From the NCBI RefSeq assembly GCF_014084105.1, contig NZ_CP048289.1:3791922-3855921 (forward strand): 64,000 nucleotides of DNA. Direction: 5' to 3'. The position numbers and the translations under genes were made by a program. The stretch is from Streptacidiphilus sp. P02-A3a. GTDB lineage: Bacteria > Actinomycetota > Actinomycetes > Streptomycetales > Streptomycetaceae. Below the pieces are notes generated by a model, which was not told the origin of the DNA, did no database searches, and saw nothing but the letters and a program-made list of their open reading frames with translations. Numbering within the stretch: position 1 is the stretch's first letter; each line of letters starts with the position of its first letter. Shown one piece after another: positions 11,477 through 20,721 of the stretch.

Positions 11477-13057
<1,581 letters not shown>

Positions 13058-13061
<4 letters not shown>

Positions 13062-13609
13062 GACGGGTCCTGGGCGGTGGCCGGTCGGTCGGCGGGCGGC
13101 CGGGGGTCGGTGGCCGCGCGTTCGGCGATCCAGTCGCGGAGCTGCTCCTGGGTGGTCGCCGGGTCGGAGACCAGGGCCAGCAGTTCGTCGTCGGGGGAGT
13201 TGAGGGTGGTGACGGCGGGGCACCGGCGGCAGGCGTCCACGCCGACCTGGTGCCACCAGGTGCAGCGGGGCCGCAGGTGGCACTGCGGAACACTGGACGC
13301 GACCGGCCCGGACGGCGCGGTACGGATGCGTTCGACCAGACCGCACTCGGTACCGACCCGCTGCGCGCACTCCGCCACGCAGTGCGAGGCGAAGCGCAGG
13401 ACCCGGGTGGGCGCGATGCCCTCCGGGATCGAGCCCAGCGCCTCGGCCGCGGGCATCGGCGCGTCCAGGTACACGACCTGGCCGTCCGGCCCGGACCTGA
13501 CGCCGAGCACGACGGCCTCCGGTCGGTCCGGCGAACCGCTCGGACACCAGGTGACCGGTCGCGGGGACTGGTCCTCGGTGCTGTTCGGCGGGTGTTCCAC
13601 GGTGCTCAC
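13058..13609 (-). CDS. Cys-rich protein of unknown function, last gene of the putative RiPP operon
   Basis: A 183-residue protein I do not recognise. It contains several spaced Cys and His residues (HCVAEC, TEC, QCHLRPRC, ACRRC) in the middle third, which could form one or more metal sites. Pro- and Asp-rich tails flank this region. The gene starts 22 bp after the small secreted peptide gene and runs in the same direction as the RiPP genes, so it is probably co-transcribed. Codon use looks normal for the genome. Its role could be regulatory, redox or immunity; the sequence does not decide. Confidence 0.65.
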
Positions 13610-13631
13610 CTCCGGCCCCGGTGCGTGTCGG

Positions 13632-13850
13632 TCAGTCGGCGGACTTGGCGACGTTGGCGAAGCCCGAGATCGGGCCGCTGCCGATGGCGTTGACGCTCTC
13701 GGCGGCGACCGCCTTGCTCAGGTGCGCCTGGAACTGCGTGAGCGAGGTGATCCGGGCGCTGCTGGCCGCGGCCTCGGCCGGACCGGCCGCCGCGAGCCCG
13801 GCGACCAGCACGGCGGCCGCGGTCGCGGCGCGGATGGTGTTCCTGTTCAT
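13632..13850 (-). CDS. Small secreted peptide in the putative RiPP operon
   Basis: A 72-residue protein with a clear Sec signal: MNRNT, a hydrophobic core to about residue 24, and an Ala-rich cleavage region ending near PAEAAA. The predicted mature part is about 45 residues, without Cys, starting near SSARITSL and ending ISGFANVAKSAD. The ATG at 13850 is preceded by a good AAGGGAACCACC site. It lies between the DUF5825-type gene and the Cys-rich gene, in the same orientation. It could be a secreted partner, an immunity factor or an unrelated exported peptide. I do not recognise a family. Confidence 0.7.
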   Translation of the reverse strand: MNRNTIRAATAAAVLVAGLAAAGPAEAAASSARITSLTQFQAHLSKAVAAESVNAIGSGPISGFANVAKSAD

Positions 13851-13892
13851 GGTGGTTCCCTTCGGTTGGGGTTGACGGGCGGATCCAGGCGG

Positions 13893-14570
13893 TCAGATGG
13901 CCATGGCCTCCTGGGTCCACCGGTCGACGCGGTACGGCAGCCACCAGGCCAGTGGACCGAGGTGCAGCAGCAGCCGCTCCTCGGTGAAGTCCGCCACCGC
14001 GTCGGCCGGGGCTTCGGCCGGTTCGGCTCCGTAGGCCAGCTGCTCGATGGCCAGCTGGTAGTGCGGCTCGTCGACGGTGAACCGGGCCAGGTGCCCCCAG
14101 CGCCGGTCCCGGATCTGGACGAAGCCCGGCCCCTGCCGCCACAGGCACTTGCCCAGGTAGTGGCCGTCGCGCCAGCCTGCGAGCGCCTGCTCGGCCTCGG
14201 GGACGCCACTGAGCCGGCGCGGCGGCTGGAGGTGGCTGAGCAGCCGCCAGCCCTCCGGTTGGGCGGGGTCGAGTTCCAGCTCCCAGTCGACCAGGACCGC
14301 CCGCGCGGTCAGGTCCCGGACCAGGCTCAGCCGCCGCAGTCGGCGGCGGGCGGTCCCGGCGTCGGCGGGCGGGGCCAGCGAGACGGCGCCGGGCACGCTG
14401 ACGAACCGCGCGCCCAGCTCCCACAGTCGGCGGCTCCAGTCGGCGGCGGGTCCGTCGAGCTCGATCGCGCCGAGGGCCATGCCGGGCAGCGCCCGCGCGA
14501 CCGGGTCGTAGTCGCGCCAGGCGCTCACCAGCACGGTGTCGGCGACCGTGGCGGAATTGGTCTCAGGCAT
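13893..14570 (-). CDS. DUF5825-type partner protein of the radical SAM enzyme
   Basis: A 225-residue soluble protein without membrane segments. It overlaps the radical SAM gene by 8 bp, so the two are likely translated together. The N-terminal half has a TIM-barrel-like hydrophobic pattern (SRRLWELGARFVSVPGAVSL). The C-terminal half contains GPGFVQIRDRR and an acidic helix before HLGPLAWWLPYRVDRW. From memory, DUF5825 proteins occur beside RiPP-maturation radical SAM C-methyltransferases in actinomycetes. I assign it on both sequence impression and context. Possible roles are precursor binding or a second modification step; neither is shown by sequence. Confidence 0.7.
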   Translation of the reverse strand: MPETNSATVADTVLVSAWRDYDPVARALPGMALGAIELDGPAADWSRRLWELGARFVSVPGAVSLAPPADAGTARRRLRRLSLVRDLTARAVLVDWELELDPAQPEGWRLLSHLQPPRRLSGVPEAEQALAGWRDGHYLGKCLWRQGPGFVQIRDRRWGHLARFTVDEPHYQLAIEQLAYGAEPAEAPADAVADFTEERLLLHLGPLAWWLPYRVDRWTQEAMAI

Positions 14571-16506
14571 GTGCGGCCACCAGGGACTCGTGCCGGGCGC
14601 CCGGCACGGGCGCGGTCACGTCGGCGGGCGCCGACTCGGCGGGGGCGGCGTGGGCGTGGCGCATGAAGTCCAGCCGCAGCAGGTCCTCGTTGACGGCGGC
14701 CGGGGCCAGCTGCACGTAGTGGCCGCTGTCGGTGAACACCAGCCCCAACTCGACCCAGCTGTCCAGCAGTTCGCTGACCCGTCGCTCGTCGCCCGCGGCG
14801 GCCTTGCGGGCCAGCGCGGCGGGGGAGTGCGGCTGGTCCAGCAGCCGGAAGATCTGGATCTCCCACGGGTCGGTGAGTTCCAGCACCCGCCAGTCGAACG
14901 CGCGGCGCCGGCTGACCAGGACGATCCGGGTCCCCAGGTCGGTCTGGGTGAGCCGGGCGTCCGTGTGGTGCTTCTTCCACAGCGCCAGCGCGTCGTTGAG
15001 CGTGCTGACCGTGGGCTCACCGATGCCGCGCTCGGGCGCCTCGAAGACGTAGGCGAGGTCGTAGAGTTCCGACTCCGGCAGGTCGTAGGTGAAGCGGTAG
15101 TGCACCTCGGGGCGCAGCCCGTCGAAGCCGAGTTCGGGGCGGTTGAAGTACGGGCTGAAGCGTTCGATGGCGATCCGCGCGGACAGGTCCACCGGCGGGT
15201 CGAGGTGCTCCAGCGCGGGTATCTGCGCGATCACCCCCTCGTAGTCCTCGGCGGTCTCCCCGGGGAAGCCGTGCAGGTAGTTCCAGGACACGTTGAGGCC
15301 GGTCTCGGCGCCGTCGCGGAGCATCCGGACGTTCTGGCAGCCGCTGACGCCCTTGTCCATCAGGTTCAGCACCCGGTCGTTCAGGCTCTCGATGCCGGGC
15401 TGGACGTAGATCAGTCCGGCGTCGGACAGGGTGCGCAGTTGCGAGCGGCGCATGTTGGCCTTGATCTCGATGTGCAGCCGCAGGTCGTAGCCGCTGTCGA
15501 TGATCCGCGGCAGCACGGTGGACAGGTAGCCCATGTCCAGGATGTTGTCGACCACGTACATGTCCAGCACCCGGTGCTTGCGGGCGAGTTCCATGATCTC
15601 GTCGTAGAAGACGTCCGGGCTCTTGCTGCGGAACTGCATGAACGAGCCGTTCAGGCCGCAGAAGGTGCAGTGGTGCTTCTCGCCCCACCAGCAGCCGCGG
15701 GCGCCCTCGACCACGAGTTTGGGCTCCACCCAGTTGCGGGCGACGGACGCGGCCAGCCGCTCGAAGTAGCCGCTGTAGTCGGGCGGCAGGATCGCCGACG
15801 GCGGCAGCGGGCTGGTGGCCATGGCGTTGACGGTGCTGCCGCCGTCGGCGCCGCGGTGGCACAGGCCCGGCAGCTGGTCCACGGACTCGCCCTGCCGCAG
15901 CGCGTTCAGCAGCCGGGGCAGCACGTCCTCGCCCTCGCCGCGCACCACGTAGTCCACGAACGGGAAGCAGCGGTGCAGCGCGGCGCCCTGGTCGGCGTCG
16001 CAGTTGGCCCCGCCCATGACCGTGACGATGTCCGGGGCGAGCCGTTTCACGTGCTTGGCGGCGGCCAGCGCGGCGGTGTTCTGCTGGAAGGTGGAGGTGA
16101 AGCCGACCACGTCCGGTTTCAGGTCGACGATCCGCTGGGCGATCTCGGCGACGAACTCCGGTACCAGTCGGTGCAGTTCCTGCGACATCCGCATTCTGGA
16201 CCGGCGCAGCTTGGTGCGCATCGCCTCGGTGAACTCCTGCTCGCGCCAGTGCGGGTCGTCGTACAGGGCGGAGGAGAAGACCCAGTCGCCGCAGCCCATG
16301 AAGTACGACGAGAGCGCGTAGTACTCGTAGTCCTCGGCGGTGAACTCGGTTCGGGCGGTGATCCAGTCGGTGAACTCCAGGTTGGCGTGCAGGACGTGCG
16401 CGTCGGCACCGGGTACCCGCTCGTCCACGCTGCGTTTGAGGATCCCCAGGGCCAGCGACGGGAGGTCGATCGGGGACCAGGGCATGTTGACCAGAAGGAC
16501 GCGCAC
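14563..16506 (-). CDS. B12-binding radical SAM enzyme, RiPP maturation C-methyltransferase type
   Basis: A 647-residue enzyme. The N-terminal part (to about residue 215) is a cobalamin-binding-like domain. The radical SAM domain follows, with the unusual cluster motif C272-x7-C280-x2-C283 (GCWWGEKHHCTFCGLNG). Residues 546-602 (from DPWEIQIFRLL) look like a winged helix of the PqqD/RRE type, which would bind the precursor leader. From memory this matches the TIGR03975 group, now described as RiPP maturation radical SAM C-methyltransferases. The expected reaction is SAM- and B12-dependent methylation of unactivated carbons in a peptide. It lies 106 bp after the precursor gene, beyond a hairpin. 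Confidence 0.88.
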   Translation of the reverse strand: MRVLLVNMPWSPIDLPSLALGILKRSVDERVPGADAHVLHANLEFTDWITARTEFTAEDYEYYALSSYFMGCGDWVFSSALYDDPHWREQEFTEAMRTKLRRSRMRMSQELHRLVPEFVAEIAQRIVDLKPDVVGFTSTFQQNTAALAAAKHVKRLAPDIVTVMGGANCDADQGAALHRCFPFVDYVVRGEGEDVLPRLLNALRQGESVDQLPGLCHRGADGGSTVNAMATSPLPPSAILPPDYSGYFERLAASVARNWVEPKLVVEGARGCWWGEKHHCTFCGLNGSFMQFRSKSPDVFYDEIMELARKHRVLDMYVVDNILDMGYLSTVLPRIIDSGYDLRLHIEIKANMRRSQLRTLSDAGLIYVQPGIESLNDRVLNLMDKGVSGCQNVRMLRDGAETGLNVSWNYLHGFPGETAEDYEGVIAQIPALEHLDPPVDLSARIAIERFSPYFNRPELGFDGLRPEVHYRFTYDLPESELYDLAYVFEAPERGIGEPTVSTLNDALALWKKHHTDARLTQTDLGTRIVLVSRRRAFDWRVLELTDPWEIQIFRLLDQPHSPAALARKAAAGDERRVSELLDSWVELGLVFTDSGHYVQLAPAAVNEDLLRLDFMRHAHAAPAESAPADVTAPVPGARHESLVAAHA

Positions 16507-16574
16507 TAAGGCTCCTTGACGGAATGATCAGAGCGGTACTGATCAGGGCGGTACGAGGGCGCGGCGGCCGGGGC

Positions 16575-16605
16575 GGGCCGGTCGGGCGCGGAGCCCGACC
16601 GGCCC
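16575..16605. terminator. Hairpin between precursor and modifying enzyme genes
   Basis: GGGCCGGTCGGGC (16575-16587) and GCCCGACCGGCCC (16593-16605) pair perfectly over a 5-base loop, just after the precursor stop codon. In RiPP operons such hairpins commonly act as partial terminators or mRNA stabilisers, so that much more precursor than enzyme is made. I infer that role here. Confidence 0.7.
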
Positions 16606-16612
16606 GGGAGGA

Positions 16613-16732
16613 CTAGTCCTCCTCGGACTCGTCCGCGTTGCGGAACGGAATCGTCACCGTGATGCCGATGCCGGGACGACGGTTCTCCTCGTCACCGGTG
16701 AGCGGGTCGTTGTTGATGATGTCCTTCTGCAT
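16613..16732 (-). CDS. Putative RiPP precursor peptide, 39 residues
   Basis: Reading leftwards from the ATG at 16732 gives 39 codons ending in TAG at 16613. A strong ribosome binding site (AGAGGAGT) lies about 8 bases upstream. The N-terminal part starts MQKDIINNDPLTGDEENRR and is hydrophilic. Then comes a short hydrophobic stretch, GIGITVTIPF (residues 22-31), and an acidic tail, RNADESEED. There is no Cys, and only two Ser/Thr-type clusters, so lanthionine or thiazole chemistry is unlikely. Ile, Val, Pro and Phe in the hydrophobic stretch are plausible C-methylation targets for the adjacent B12-radical SAM enzyme. It lies 15 bp after the S9 peptidase gene and before a strong hairpin. Confidence 0.8.
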   Translation of the reverse strand: MQKDIINNDPLTGDEENRRPGIGITVTIPFRNADESEED

Positions 16733-16747
16733 GACCGGTACTCCTCT

Positions 16748-18649
16748 CTACGGGGCGTGCGGACGGGAGGTGCTGGCCGGGGCAGCGCGGGTACGCTGTC
16801 CGGCTTCCTGCCGCCCGGTGGCGGCAGGAGTCTGCGGCGCGGTGCGCGGGCGGTCGCGCAACTCGCGGGCCAGGAAGGTGATCGCGCGGCGCAGCACCGC
16901 GACGTGGTCGCCCCCGTCGTAGCCGTCGTGGCCGGTCGCCAGCCACATGGCCTCGTTCGGCACTCCGGCGGCGGCCAGCGCGCGCAGGTAGCCGCGGACC
17001 TGCTCCGGCGGGCACTTCAGGTCGTACTCGGCCGCGACCACCAGCAGCGGCGCCCGCACCCGCGCCGCGTAGTGGGAGGGGGAGCTGCGCGCGTAGCGCT
17101 CCGGGACCTGGTCCGGGGTGCCGCCGAAGAGCCGCTCGTCCAGGGCGCGCAGCGCGGGCGTCCCGGCGTGGAAGGCCTCGGCGCAGTCGGCGACCGGCTT
17201 CACGGCGACGCCCGCCCGCCACAGCTCCGGCTGGACGCCCAGCGCCAGCAGCGCCAGGTACCCGCCCCAGGAGGTGCCCCACAGCGCGGTGGCCCGGCCG
17301 TCGATCCAGCCGCGGTCGACCAGGTCCGCGCGGACCGAGGCCAGGTCGGCGATCTGGGTCAGGCCGACGCCCTCGCTGAAGGCCTCGCGCCAGGCGGGCC
17401 CGTACCCGGTGGAGCCGCGGTAGTTGACCCGGGCCACGGCGAAGCCGGAGGCCGCCAGCGAGTGGACGATGCCGTCGTAGGCGTCGCGGTCGTGGTCGGC
17501 GGGGCCGCCGTGCACCAGGAACACGCAGGGCGGCCGGTGCGGCCCCGGCTCGGGCAGGGTGACCAGGGTGTGCACCGGTCCGTCCGGGCCCGGGGTCCAC
17601 AGCTCGCGCCCGGTCCCGGGCAGCCGCACCTCGGCGCCGGGCATCGGCGGCAGCGCGGTGCCCGCGGTGGACCGGGCCCGGGCCGGATGCGCGGAGTCGG
17701 TCCACAGGTAGTGCACCTCACCGCCGGGGCGGGGCGCCGCGTCCAGCAGGGTGCCCGGCGGGGTCGGCACGGTGGTCAGCGTGCGGGCGTCGAGGTCGGC
17801 CAGGTGCAGGGTGCCGCGGCCGTGCCGCTCCTGCCGGATCAGCAGGGCGCGGCCGTCCGGGCACCAGCGCGCGGTGATCTCGGTGTCGAAGGCGCACCAG
17901 GGCAGTTCGACCGGGTCCGTGCCCGGCTGCCACAGGGCGGGCAGGTAGCGGCCGTCGCGCTCGCGGACCAGCAGCAGCGTCCCGGCCTTGTCGTCGGGGG
18001 CGAAGCCGAGCGGCCAGAGAGCACCGCTCTCCCCGGAGAGCACCGCGCACGGTTCGCCGTCGGCCCGCAGCACGGTGACCGCCCGCGCCGAGCGGGCCTG
18101 TCCGCCGAGGGCCAGCAGGCCGCCGTCCGGGCTGATCCCGGCCAGGTCGGCGTGGCCGTCCAGCCGGGCCACCCGTCGCCCGGTGCCGCCACGCGGACCG
18201 GTGTACAGCGCGGTCCCCCCGGATCCGGCCGCGGTTCCAGGCCCGGTTTGAGTCCCGGTCCCGGTTCCGGTTTCGGTCCCGGTTTCGGCCACGGCGAGGG
18301 CGACCTGGCCGTCGTCGCTCACGGCCAGCCCGTGGGTCCGCGCGGACGGTACGCCGGGCAGGCCGGGCAGGTCGGGGCCGCCCGCGAACGGCTGGTACCG
18401 CCAGATCCCCGCGCCGTGCTCGTCCTCGTCGAACCACCAGACGTGGCCGTCGCCGTCGATCGCCGCGTGGAAGGTCCCGCCGGGGCGATCGGTGACCTGC
18501 CGGGCGCGCGCGGTGCGGGCGTCCCAGGTGAAGATCTCGCAGCGGCCCGCCGCGTCGCCGGTGAACACCATCCGGGTCGGATCGCCGTCGCAGACCTCGG
18601 GCAGCGCCGCCCGGAACACCTCGAAGCTGCCCCGGTCGGTCGCGGTCAC
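16748..18649 (-). CDS. S9 family (prolyl oligopeptidase-type) serine peptidase in the RiPP operon
   Basis: A 633-residue protein with an N-terminal beta-propeller (about residues 20-340) and a C-terminal alpha/beta-hydrolase domain. The catalytic triad is visible: Ser460 in GTSWGG, Asp543 in AAEYDLK and His574 in ATGHDGY. Residues 121-137 are a Thr/Gly repeat (TGTETGTGTGTQTG) within the propeller. There is no signal peptide, so it should act in the cytosol. The GTG start at 18649 overlaps the MFS stop (GTGA). Given its place directly before the precursor gene, I infer that it trims the modified peptide or its leader; a Pro lies in the core region (IPF). A general peptidase is the alternative. 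Confidence 0.88.
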   Translation of the reverse strand: MTATDRGSFEVFRAALPEVCDGDPTRMVFTGDAAGRCEIFTWDARTARARQVTDRPGGTFHAAIDGDGHVWWFDEDEHGAGIWRYQPFAGGPDLPGLPGVPSARTHGLAVSDDGQVALAVAETGTETGTGTGTQTGPGTAAGSGGTALYTGPRGGTGRRVARLDGHADLAGISPDGGLLALGGQARSARAVTVLRADGEPCAVLSGESGALWPLGFAPDDKAGTLLLVRERDGRYLPALWQPGTDPVELPWCAFDTEITARWCPDGRALLIRQERHGRGTLHLADLDARTLTTVPTPPGTLLDAAPRPGGEVHYLWTDSAHPARARSTAGTALPPMPGAEVRLPGTGRELWTPGPDGPVHTLVTLPEPGPHRPPCVFLVHGGPADHDRDAYDGIVHSLAASGFAVARVNYRGSTGYGPAWREAFSEGVGLTQIADLASVRADLVDRGWIDGRATALWGTSWGGYLALLALGVQPELWRAGVAVKPVADCAEAFHAGTPALRALDERLFGGTPDQVPERYARSSPSHYAARVRAPLLVVAAEYDLKCPPEQVRGYLRALAAAGVPNEAMWLATGHDGYDGGDHVAVLRRAITFLARELRDRPRTAPQTPAATGRQEAGQRTRAAPASTSRPHAP

Positions 18650-20016
18650 CGGACGCTCCCCAGGCTCGGTCCGGCGGCTGGGAGCTCCAGCGACCGGGGG
18701 CCGACCCAGCCGGTGTACAGCGCCAGCGCGCCCAGCAGCGCGGCGCAGCCGAGCGCCAGCGCCGCCCGGCCGGACTGCCCGGGCAGTGCCCCGCCGACCG
18801 CGCCGGCGGCGACCGGGCCGAGCGCGGCGGCGGCCCCGGTGGCGGCGGTGAGCACCGCGCTCGCCCGGGCCCGCAGTTCGCCGGGCACCACGTGGATGGC
18901 GCGGGACTGGAGTACCACGGTGGCGCTGGGGACCAGCAGGCACACGGCGGCGAGCGGCGCCGCGAAGGCGAGCGGTCGGCCGCCCAGCGCCATGGCCGCG
19001 CTCAGCGGCACCAGCAGCCAGGTCACCGCGAGCACGGTGCGGGTGCCGCCGATCCGGCGGGCGGCGGCGGGCGCGCCCAGCGCCCCGGCGATGCCCGCCG
19101 CGCCGCACCCGGCGAGCACCGCGCCGGTGACCGCGCCGCCGTAGCCGCCGCGTTCCAGCACGAACAGCGCGCCGTAGTACAGCGCCGCGAGCACCAGGTT
19201 GACCGCGGTGACCCAGACCAGCACCGTCCGCAGCAGCGGGGTGCCGCGTACCAGCCGGGCACCGGCGGTGGCCTCGGCCAGGGCCCGGGCGGTCCGGCCG
19301 CCGCGCGGGGCCCGGGCCGCGGGCCCGCGGCCCGGGGAGCCCGCGCGCAGGTCGTCGCGCATGGACCGGACGCACAGCGCGGTGATCGCGTACGATCCGG
19401 CGTCGGCGGCGAACGGCCAGGCCCGGGCCAGCTGGTAGAGCAGGCCGCCGAGGGCCGGGCCGAGTACCAGCGCGCCCTGTTCGCCCGCCTGGAGCCGGGC
19501 GGTCAGCGTCGGGTAGTCGGGCGGCGCGCAGAGCGCGGCGACGGTGCCGCCGAGCGCGGCCTGGTAACAGCAGGCGCCACAGCGCTCCACCAGCAGCAGG
19601 CCGAGCAGCACCGCCAGCGGCGGCCGCCCGGCGGCGACGGTGACGGCCACGGCCGTCATCGCGGCGGCGGACGCGGCGGCGGACCAGACCAGTACCGCCT
19701 TGCGCGCGCCCCGGTCGGCCGGGATCGCGGCCAGCGGGCCGAGCAGCAGTCCGGCTCCGGTGGCGGCCCCGGCGAGCGCGCCCACCACCGCGACCGGGTA
19801 GCCGAGGCCGAGCAGCAGCAGCGGTAGCACGACGCCGGAGGCCTGGCTGCCGAGGGCGTCCGAGGTGCTGGCCCACCAGAGCCGCCGCAGGTCGTGCGCC
19901 GCATTGGCCGGGGCGGTGACCGGGGCGTCGGCCGGGGCGGTGACCGGCGGCGCGGGTTGCGGGGCGGCCGGGGCAGCCAGGACGCCGTCGGCGTCGAATC
20001 CCGAATCAGTGCCCAC
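18646..20016 (-). CDS. MFS transporter, first gene of the putative RiPP operon
   Basis: A 456-residue membrane protein with about 12 hydrophobic segments starting near residue 50, and a 45-residue Ala/Pro-rich cytosolic N-terminus. It resembles the enterobactin-exporter-like (EntS/MFS_3) group: LLPLLLLGLGYPVAVVGAL and the loop ADRGARKAVL, a weak form of the MFS signature. A GGGGGGTGA ribosome binding site precedes the GTG at 20016. It is the first of seven leftward genes, and I infer that it exports the mature peptide. There is no ABC transporter in this operon. Confidence 0.85.
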   Translation of the reverse strand: MGTDSGFDADGVLAAPAAPQPAPPVTAPADAPVTAPANAAHDLRRLWWASTSDALGSQASGVVLPLLLLGLGYPVAVVGALAGAATGAGLLLGPLAAIPADRGARKAVLVWSAAASAAAMTAVAVTVAAGRPPLAVLLGLLLVERCGACCYQAALGGTVAALCAPPDYPTLTARLQAGEQGALVLGPALGGLLYQLARAWPFAADAGSYAITALCVRSMRDDLRAGSPGRGPAARAPRGGRTARALAEATAGARLVRGTPLLRTVLVWVTAVNLVLAALYYGALFVLERGGYGGAVTGAVLAGCGAAGIAGALGAPAAARRIGGTRTVLAVTWLLVPLSAAMALGGRPLAFAAPLAAVCLLVPSATVVLQSRAIHVVPGELRARASAVLTAATGAAAALGPVAAGAVGGALPGQSGRAALALGCAALLGALALYTGWVGPRSLELPAAGPSLGSVR

Positions 20017-20484: not shown

Positions 20485-20721
20485 TCAGCGTGCTGACTTC
20501 CGCCGCCCGGTCAGTGCGCGCAGCGCCACCCAGGGGTTCTTTCCGCGCTCGGCCCGGCGCCGGTTCCACTCGGCGTCCCGGCGGGCCCGCATGACCGCGG
20601 GCGGGTCGACCGAGTGCCCGCAGCGGGAGCAGCAGTACCCGCCGTCCGGGCCGTCGACCACCCGGTCGCCGCACGCCTGGCAGGCCGAGATGACCTGCCC
20701 GGCCTCGCTGTCCGCCGCCAT
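20485..20721 (-). CDS. Small zinc-ribbon protein
   Basis: A 78-residue protein with two Cys pairs, CQACGDR and YCCSRCG, spaced as in a zinc ribbon (about residues 14-34). A basic C-terminal half follows (RRRAERGKNPWVALRALTGRRKSAR). The function is unknown; such proteins often bind nucleic acid or act as small adaptors. It is an orphan between the RiPP promoter region and a small membrane protein on the same strand. Codon use is normal for the genome, which supports a real gene. Confidence 0.65.
   Translation of the reverse strand: MAADSEAGQVISACQACGDRVVDGPDGGYCCSRCGHSVDPPAVMRARRDAEWNRRRAERGKNPWVALRALTGRRKSAR

Follow-up and report, generated by a model that had tools for sequence, protein, structure and literature searches.

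We analyzed a 64,000-nucleotide stretch of the Streptacidiphilus sp. P02-A3a genome (contig NZ_CP048289.1, positions 3,791,922 to 3,855,921; hereafter the window) and found that it very probably carries a clavusporin-type (mpc-like) operon for a ribosomally synthesized and post-translationally modified peptide (RiPP), which adds an example from Streptacidiphilus to an already described type of system. The operon encodes, in this order, a major facilitator superfamily (MFS) transporter, an S9-family serine peptidase, a 39-residue precursor peptide, a cobalamin (B12)-dependent radical S-adenosylmethionine (SAM) enzyme and a DUF5825 protein. The assignment follows from the profile scores of the last two proteins (TIGR03975 and PF19142), the conserved order of the five genes, synteny with a Streptomyces clavuligerus plasmid, the parallel with the clavusporin peptidase MpcP, the conserved columns of the precursor and the likeness of the modelled DUF5825 C-terminal half to RiPP recognition elements.

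The five-gene unit and its counterparts

A preliminary description of the window had proposed a seven-gene cluster at 13058–20016. All seven minus-strand reading frames are present and real, but the genes from MFS to DUF5825 alone form the conserved unit. We compared the window proteins with 157 loci (3 from plasmids, and 74 and 80 from genomes, some places having been fetched twice). The precursor peptide was detected in 136 of them, and in 132 of these 136 the five genes follow the same order on one strand. The exceptions comprise three loci at contig ends (L101, L195 and L241) and one, L231, that has no recognisable MFS gene despite the presence of upstream sequence. The short peptide is conserved beside the radical SAM enzyme in related genomes, and a lack of such conservation would have spoken against the preliminary description. 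Among 391 genomes from the order, 53 carry it, and DUF5825 was found in 25 of 199 relatives (the window's own genome counted in both cases) and in none of 14 controls.

The unit, which lies entirely on the minus strand, begins with the gene for the MFS transporter, a probable exporter (18646..20016; Pfam MFS_1, 64.6 bits). Its stop codon is overlapped by the GTG start, read from the sequence, of the MpcP-like S9 peptidase gene (16748..~18649; Peptidase_S9, 117 bits). The precursor gene (16613..16732) and the radical SAM gene (14563..16506) follow, and the 3′ end of the latter is overlapped over 8 nt by the DUF5825 gene (13893..14570; PF19142, 238.7 bits with a cut-off of 25). A Pfam scan of 19 frames, which cover part of the window (9 and 10 frames, one plus-strand frame among the 9 being probably no gene), found no lanthipeptide, YcaO or lasso enzymes, whose absence had been noted before.

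The best profile for the radical SAM protein is TIGR03975, "RiPP maturation radical SAM C-methyltransferase", which it matches well above threshold (622.6 bits; cut-off 281.85), alongside the Pfam B12-binding and Radical_SAM domains. This places the cobalamin-dependent enzyme in a RiPP family rather than in a non-peptide B12-radical SAM family. Its C-x7-C-x2-C motif recurs in all 110 relatives with a match of at least 500 columns. In a radical SAM tree of 117 rows built by a quick method, the window forms a pair with Streptacidiphilus sp. 4-A2 (support 94) within a clade of seven rows (support 96), which itself lies inside the diversity of Streptomyces; horizontal transfer is plausible. In the 4-A2 genome, rated 76% complete, several operon genes match only partly, as if their frames were broken (L115/L168), and sequencing errors are the likely cause.

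Plasmid pCLA1 of S. clavuligerus ATCC 27064, which we take to be the clavusporin producer, carries five genes in the same order as the window. The identities between the two loci are 49% for the MFS protein, 61% for the S9 peptidase, 69% for the precursor, 81% for the radical SAM enzyme and 58% for DUF5825, of which a search of the pCLA1 record shows a single gene. The two loci differ in genus and in the peptide core, which is SVGITITVPF in S. clavuligerus and GIGITVTIPF in the window, and the window operon is trailed by an extra two-gene module.

Clavusporins (Nat Chem Biol 2025) are reported to be C-methylated by a homologous pair of a B12-dependent radical SAM enzyme and a DUF5825 protein (PMC12257519, PMC12951456), and their leader is reported to be removed by MpcP, an enzyme of the prolyl-oligopeptidase (S9) family (PMC12951456). 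The window shares the enzyme pair, an S9 peptidase that may play the MpcP role and, by homology, a C-methylated peptide. The link between the radical SAM enzyme and RiPP C-methylation, already suggested in the preliminary description, is upheld by both the TIGR03975 match and the reported activity of the homologous pair. That description was right in its observation and largely right in its chemistry, but it overstated the novelty: a new kind of RiPP cluster is not called for where the clavusporins already combine such a pair with a peptidase of the S9 type.

Other known systems share parts of this make-up. The biphenomycin-like clusters with YHxYxY precursors also place a B12-dependent radical SAM enzyme and DUF5825 beside the precursor, but they are reported to carry an MNIO, at least one further B12-dependent radical SAM enzyme and a different precursor (PMC12257519). 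The window precursor, at 39 residues and with no match to an NCBIfam or Pfam family, lacks a long proteusin-type leader. Proteusins such as polytheonamide undergo C-methylation of aliphatic side chains by B12-dependent radical SAM enzymes.

The S9 peptidase retains its catalytic residues throughout the relatives: in an alignment of 110 sequences that includes the window, Ser458 and Asp541 are kept in all 110 and His572 in 109, with one gap. A loss of the active-site motif was considered and rejected, as the 26 of 109 sequences lacking the strict G-x-S-x-G-G carry G-x-S-x-G-A with the catalytic serine in place. The match to the NCBIfam family of the lasso isopeptidase Atxe2, itself S9-like, reaches 36.2 bits, far below the cut-off of 400. 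A C-methylated linear peptide whose leader is removed by an S9 peptidase is the best reading. The preliminary description envisaged a prolyl-oligopeptidase-type enzyme; by sequence, the solved structures closest to the S9 enzyme are those of acylamino-acid-releasing enzymes, and a prolyl oligopeptidase stands lower in the list.

The precursor peptide and its proposed maturation

The precursor, MQKDIINNDPLTGDEENRRPGIGITVTIPFRNADESEED, appears to be divided into a leader (residues 1–20), a core (about 21–30), Arg31 and an acidic tail (32–39). Removal of repeats left 111 distinct copies, distinctness being judged on the precursor with 60 bases on each side; near-identical strains remain, so that alignment columns are not independent, and the relatives were retrieved through their likeness to genes of the window, which makes the counts overstate independence. 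Excluding a frame-broken copy (L168) and one with Ns in the core (L186) and adding the window gave an alignment of 110 sequences, 100 with a full-length core, marked by Pro29, and 10 with other cores.

The leader follows the pattern MQKDIIxNDPLxGDEENR. Among the 100 precursors with full-length cores, Lys3, Asp4, Ile6, Asn8, Pro10, Leu11 and Arg18 are invariant, Pro20 is present in 96 (the other four have Val) and Arg31 in 99. Positions 22, 24, 26 and 28 are occupied by Ile or Val in every one of the 100, and the tail past Arg31 always has a net charge between −3 and −6. Eight of the ten remaining cores are GVGVVVYF or GVGVVVYL. These shortened cores, found before Arg in L104–L110 and L124, belong to a branch of their own in the radical SAM tree.

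The peptide is, on the sequence evidence, a real gene and not a chance open reading frame: it recurs across the genomes of the order, a Shine-Dalgarno-like motif (under a loose test) lies upstream of all 111 distinct copies, and single-base codon differences are about equally synonymous (19030) and non-synonymous (18947). In the absence of selection, a ratio of about 1:3 is expected. It is exceedingly unlikely that the frame is untranslated or no substrate, with the radical SAM enzyme and DUF5825 acting on something else. Such a reading could draw on the quite different peptides that adjoin the enzyme pair in other genomes, and on one locus (L234) where the pair is present and the 39-residue peptide was not found despite there being no assembly gap. 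This is one of six of the 80 named-genome loci in which the peptide is missing; in the other five the contig ends nearby (L173, L193, L208 and L217) or has an assembly gap at this point (L216). Set against this are the strong conservation of the peptide, the motif and codon evidence, and its fixed place between the S9 and radical SAM genes.

We propose that DUF5825 binds the conserved leader, probably through the C-terminal domain discussed below, as its structural model suggests. By analogy with clavusporins, the radical SAM enzyme would then methylate unactivated carbons in the hydrophobic core (GIGITVTIPF). The likeliest sites are the alternating residues 22, 24, 26 and 28, which are Ile or Val without exception in the full-length cores. 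The S9 peptidase would cut off the leader, probably close to Pro20 or at this residue, the acidic tail may also be removed, and the MFS protein would export the product, which by the same analogy could be a surface-active peptide aiding development. The computed [M+H]+ values are 1017.598 for GIGITVTIPF, 1173.699 for GIGITVTIPFR and 2062.993 for GIGITVTIPFRNADESEED, each increased by n × 14.0157 for n methylations.

The same operon could in principle house a radical SAM enzyme with another chemistry, such as carbon–carbon cross-linking or desaturation. A B12-dependent radical SAM enzyme of the pbs pathway is reported to cross-link two ortho-tyrosines (PMC12257519), and aromatic residues are frequent at the end of the core: Phe30 is found in 86 of the 100 full-length cores, and three of the ten others (L104–L106) end in Tyr-Phe. 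However, position 30 can also be Ile or Leu, the window core has one aromatic residue and none of the 100 full-length cores has more than one, which makes an aromatic–aromatic cross-link, though not other cross-links, impossible there. Given also that a homologous enzyme paired with DUF5825 is reported to C-methylate, we see a very slim chance for such chemistry and retain C-methylation as the probable function of the enzyme.

DUF5825 and its C-terminal half

The structural model of DUF5825 comprises an N-terminal alpha/beta half and a C-terminal half (about residues 140–210) resembling a RiPP recognition element (RRE). The C-terminal elements are strands at 142–147, 150–155 and 162–166, helices at 169–178 and 189–197, and strands at 201–204 and 207–210. 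The RRE topology starts with three strands and continues with helices and a wing. Modelled alone, the C-terminal half shows the same order of elements with lower confidence. In a structural comparison of this half, the two best rows are leader-bound TbiB1, an RRE protein of lasso peptides (PDB 5v1u and 5v1v), and ThcOx takes fifth place, the Z scores being modest throughout; other known RRE structures are not among the matches listed, which excludes nothing.

Several searches returned no relationship of this kind. Foldseek gave no match with E < 0.001 for either the whole model or the C-terminal half, and the DUF5825 profile matched solved structures only at chance level (best E 0.17). The PqqD family is absent from the seven families matched by 31 DUF5825 members at E values up to 5, in a search whose filters drop most weak matches. 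DUF5825 differs from TbiB1 in its extra N-terminal alpha/beta half and in that no match to a PqqD/RRE sequence family was found, weak matches being mostly filtered out. The RRE-like order of the modelled C-terminal half is possibly a new part of this analysis.

DUF5825 also serves other systems, because in 15 of 22 loci chosen for DUF5825, outside the set chosen by the peptide, the 39-residue peptide was not found (tblastn, E 0.001). At two loci, L117 (15499) and L128 (3021), the enzyme pair has a shared 55-residue peptide containing YHSYTY no more than 4 kb away, which fits the YHxYxY biphenomycin-like precursors of PMC12257519. Two others, L125 (11393) and L126 (15193), have within 4 kb of the pair a common 33-residue peptide starting MKKVTVRKVGPVRLTSVAA, which is possibly a precursor of another type. 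With such different peptides adjoining it, the pair of radical SAM enzyme and DUF5825 looks like a portable methylation module.

We regard as evenly balanced a broader proposal: that DUF5825 is a previously unrecognised RRE carrier, a two-domain, detachable leader-binding subunit that would serve C-methylating B12-dependent radical SAM enzymes in a number of RiPP types unrelated to one another. Its part in clavusporin-type systems would be to present a strand-like core with Ile or Val at every second residue, so that the enzyme would methylate one face of this strand.

Neighbouring genes and the significance of the operon

Two further minus-strand genes closely trail DUF5825 in the window. The first encodes a 72-residue peptide with a signal-like N-terminus (13632..13850), and the second a 183-residue Cys-rich protein with eight cysteines in its conserved part (13058..13609); both were delimited by translation, and neither has a credible family match in NCBIfam or Pfam. 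The preliminary description counted them as cluster members, but they constitute a separate module, found near the operon in four of the 157 compared loci. Within the family, 26 of 297 genomes (the window's own among them) encode the Cys-rich protein, and of its 18 stronger matches, window included, 13 are preceded by a similar small peptide.

Besides the window, the pair is near the operon in three distinct places (L092, L167, and L115/L168, the last being one place fetched twice), and all of these fall into the radical SAM clade of seven. The placement varies. In the window the pair comes immediately after the operon, in L167 it lies upstream, in Streptacidiphilus sp. 4-A2 it is found several kb downstream, and in L092 its orientation is opposite. 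Among the other members of the clade, L032 and L165 have no pair within the available DNA, and the contig of L175 ends soon past DUF5825.

This pattern bears on whether all seven genes could make up one pathway, with the 72-residue peptide as a second substrate or product partner and the Cys-rich protein as an iron-sulfur accessory. The two genes share strand and close spacing with the operon in the window, and the recurrence of the pair at varied positions within one subclade suggests that nearness is kept or regained. On the other hand, the pair was not found nearby in 153 of the 157 loci, some of them cut by contig ends and five having weak Cys-rich stretches of 27–33% identity, and elsewhere in genomes it occurs without a widely shared neighbour. 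We consider a seven-gene pathway quite improbable; nearness of the pair to the operon is a habit of the subclade, outside the core five-gene pathway.

A shared neighbourhood that would point to a pathway specific to the pair was rejected as well. Gene calling and clustering of 20 Cys-rich loci recovered the Cys-rich family in 14, and the only other family in at least four loci was a regulator-like protein (4 of 20); the gene caller was crude, mislabelling some frames and missing peptides below 60 residues. An in-frame stop, mostly TGA, was reported for many Cys-rich relatives and raised the idea of a selenoprotein, which was dismissed as alignments show a normal stop codon close to a C-terminus whose length varies. 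A gene for O6-methylguanine-DNA methyltransferase on the plus strand (12561–13061) converges on the Cys-rich gene with a 4-base overlap. Upstream of the MFS gene, a 78-residue frame (20485–20721) has zinc-ribbon-like Cys pairs and only sub-threshold Pfam matches.

The analysis adds Streptacidiphilus to the genera with clavusporin-type operons and shows how little their precursors vary. If the RRE reading of DUF5825 is true, it would explain why B12-radical SAM methylases need this protein, and would give searches for further C-methylated peptides a sequence marker. Natural cores such as GIGITVTIPF, SVGITITVPF, GVGVVVYF and GVIVGVRIPF form a library that allows a direct test of the methylation rule.

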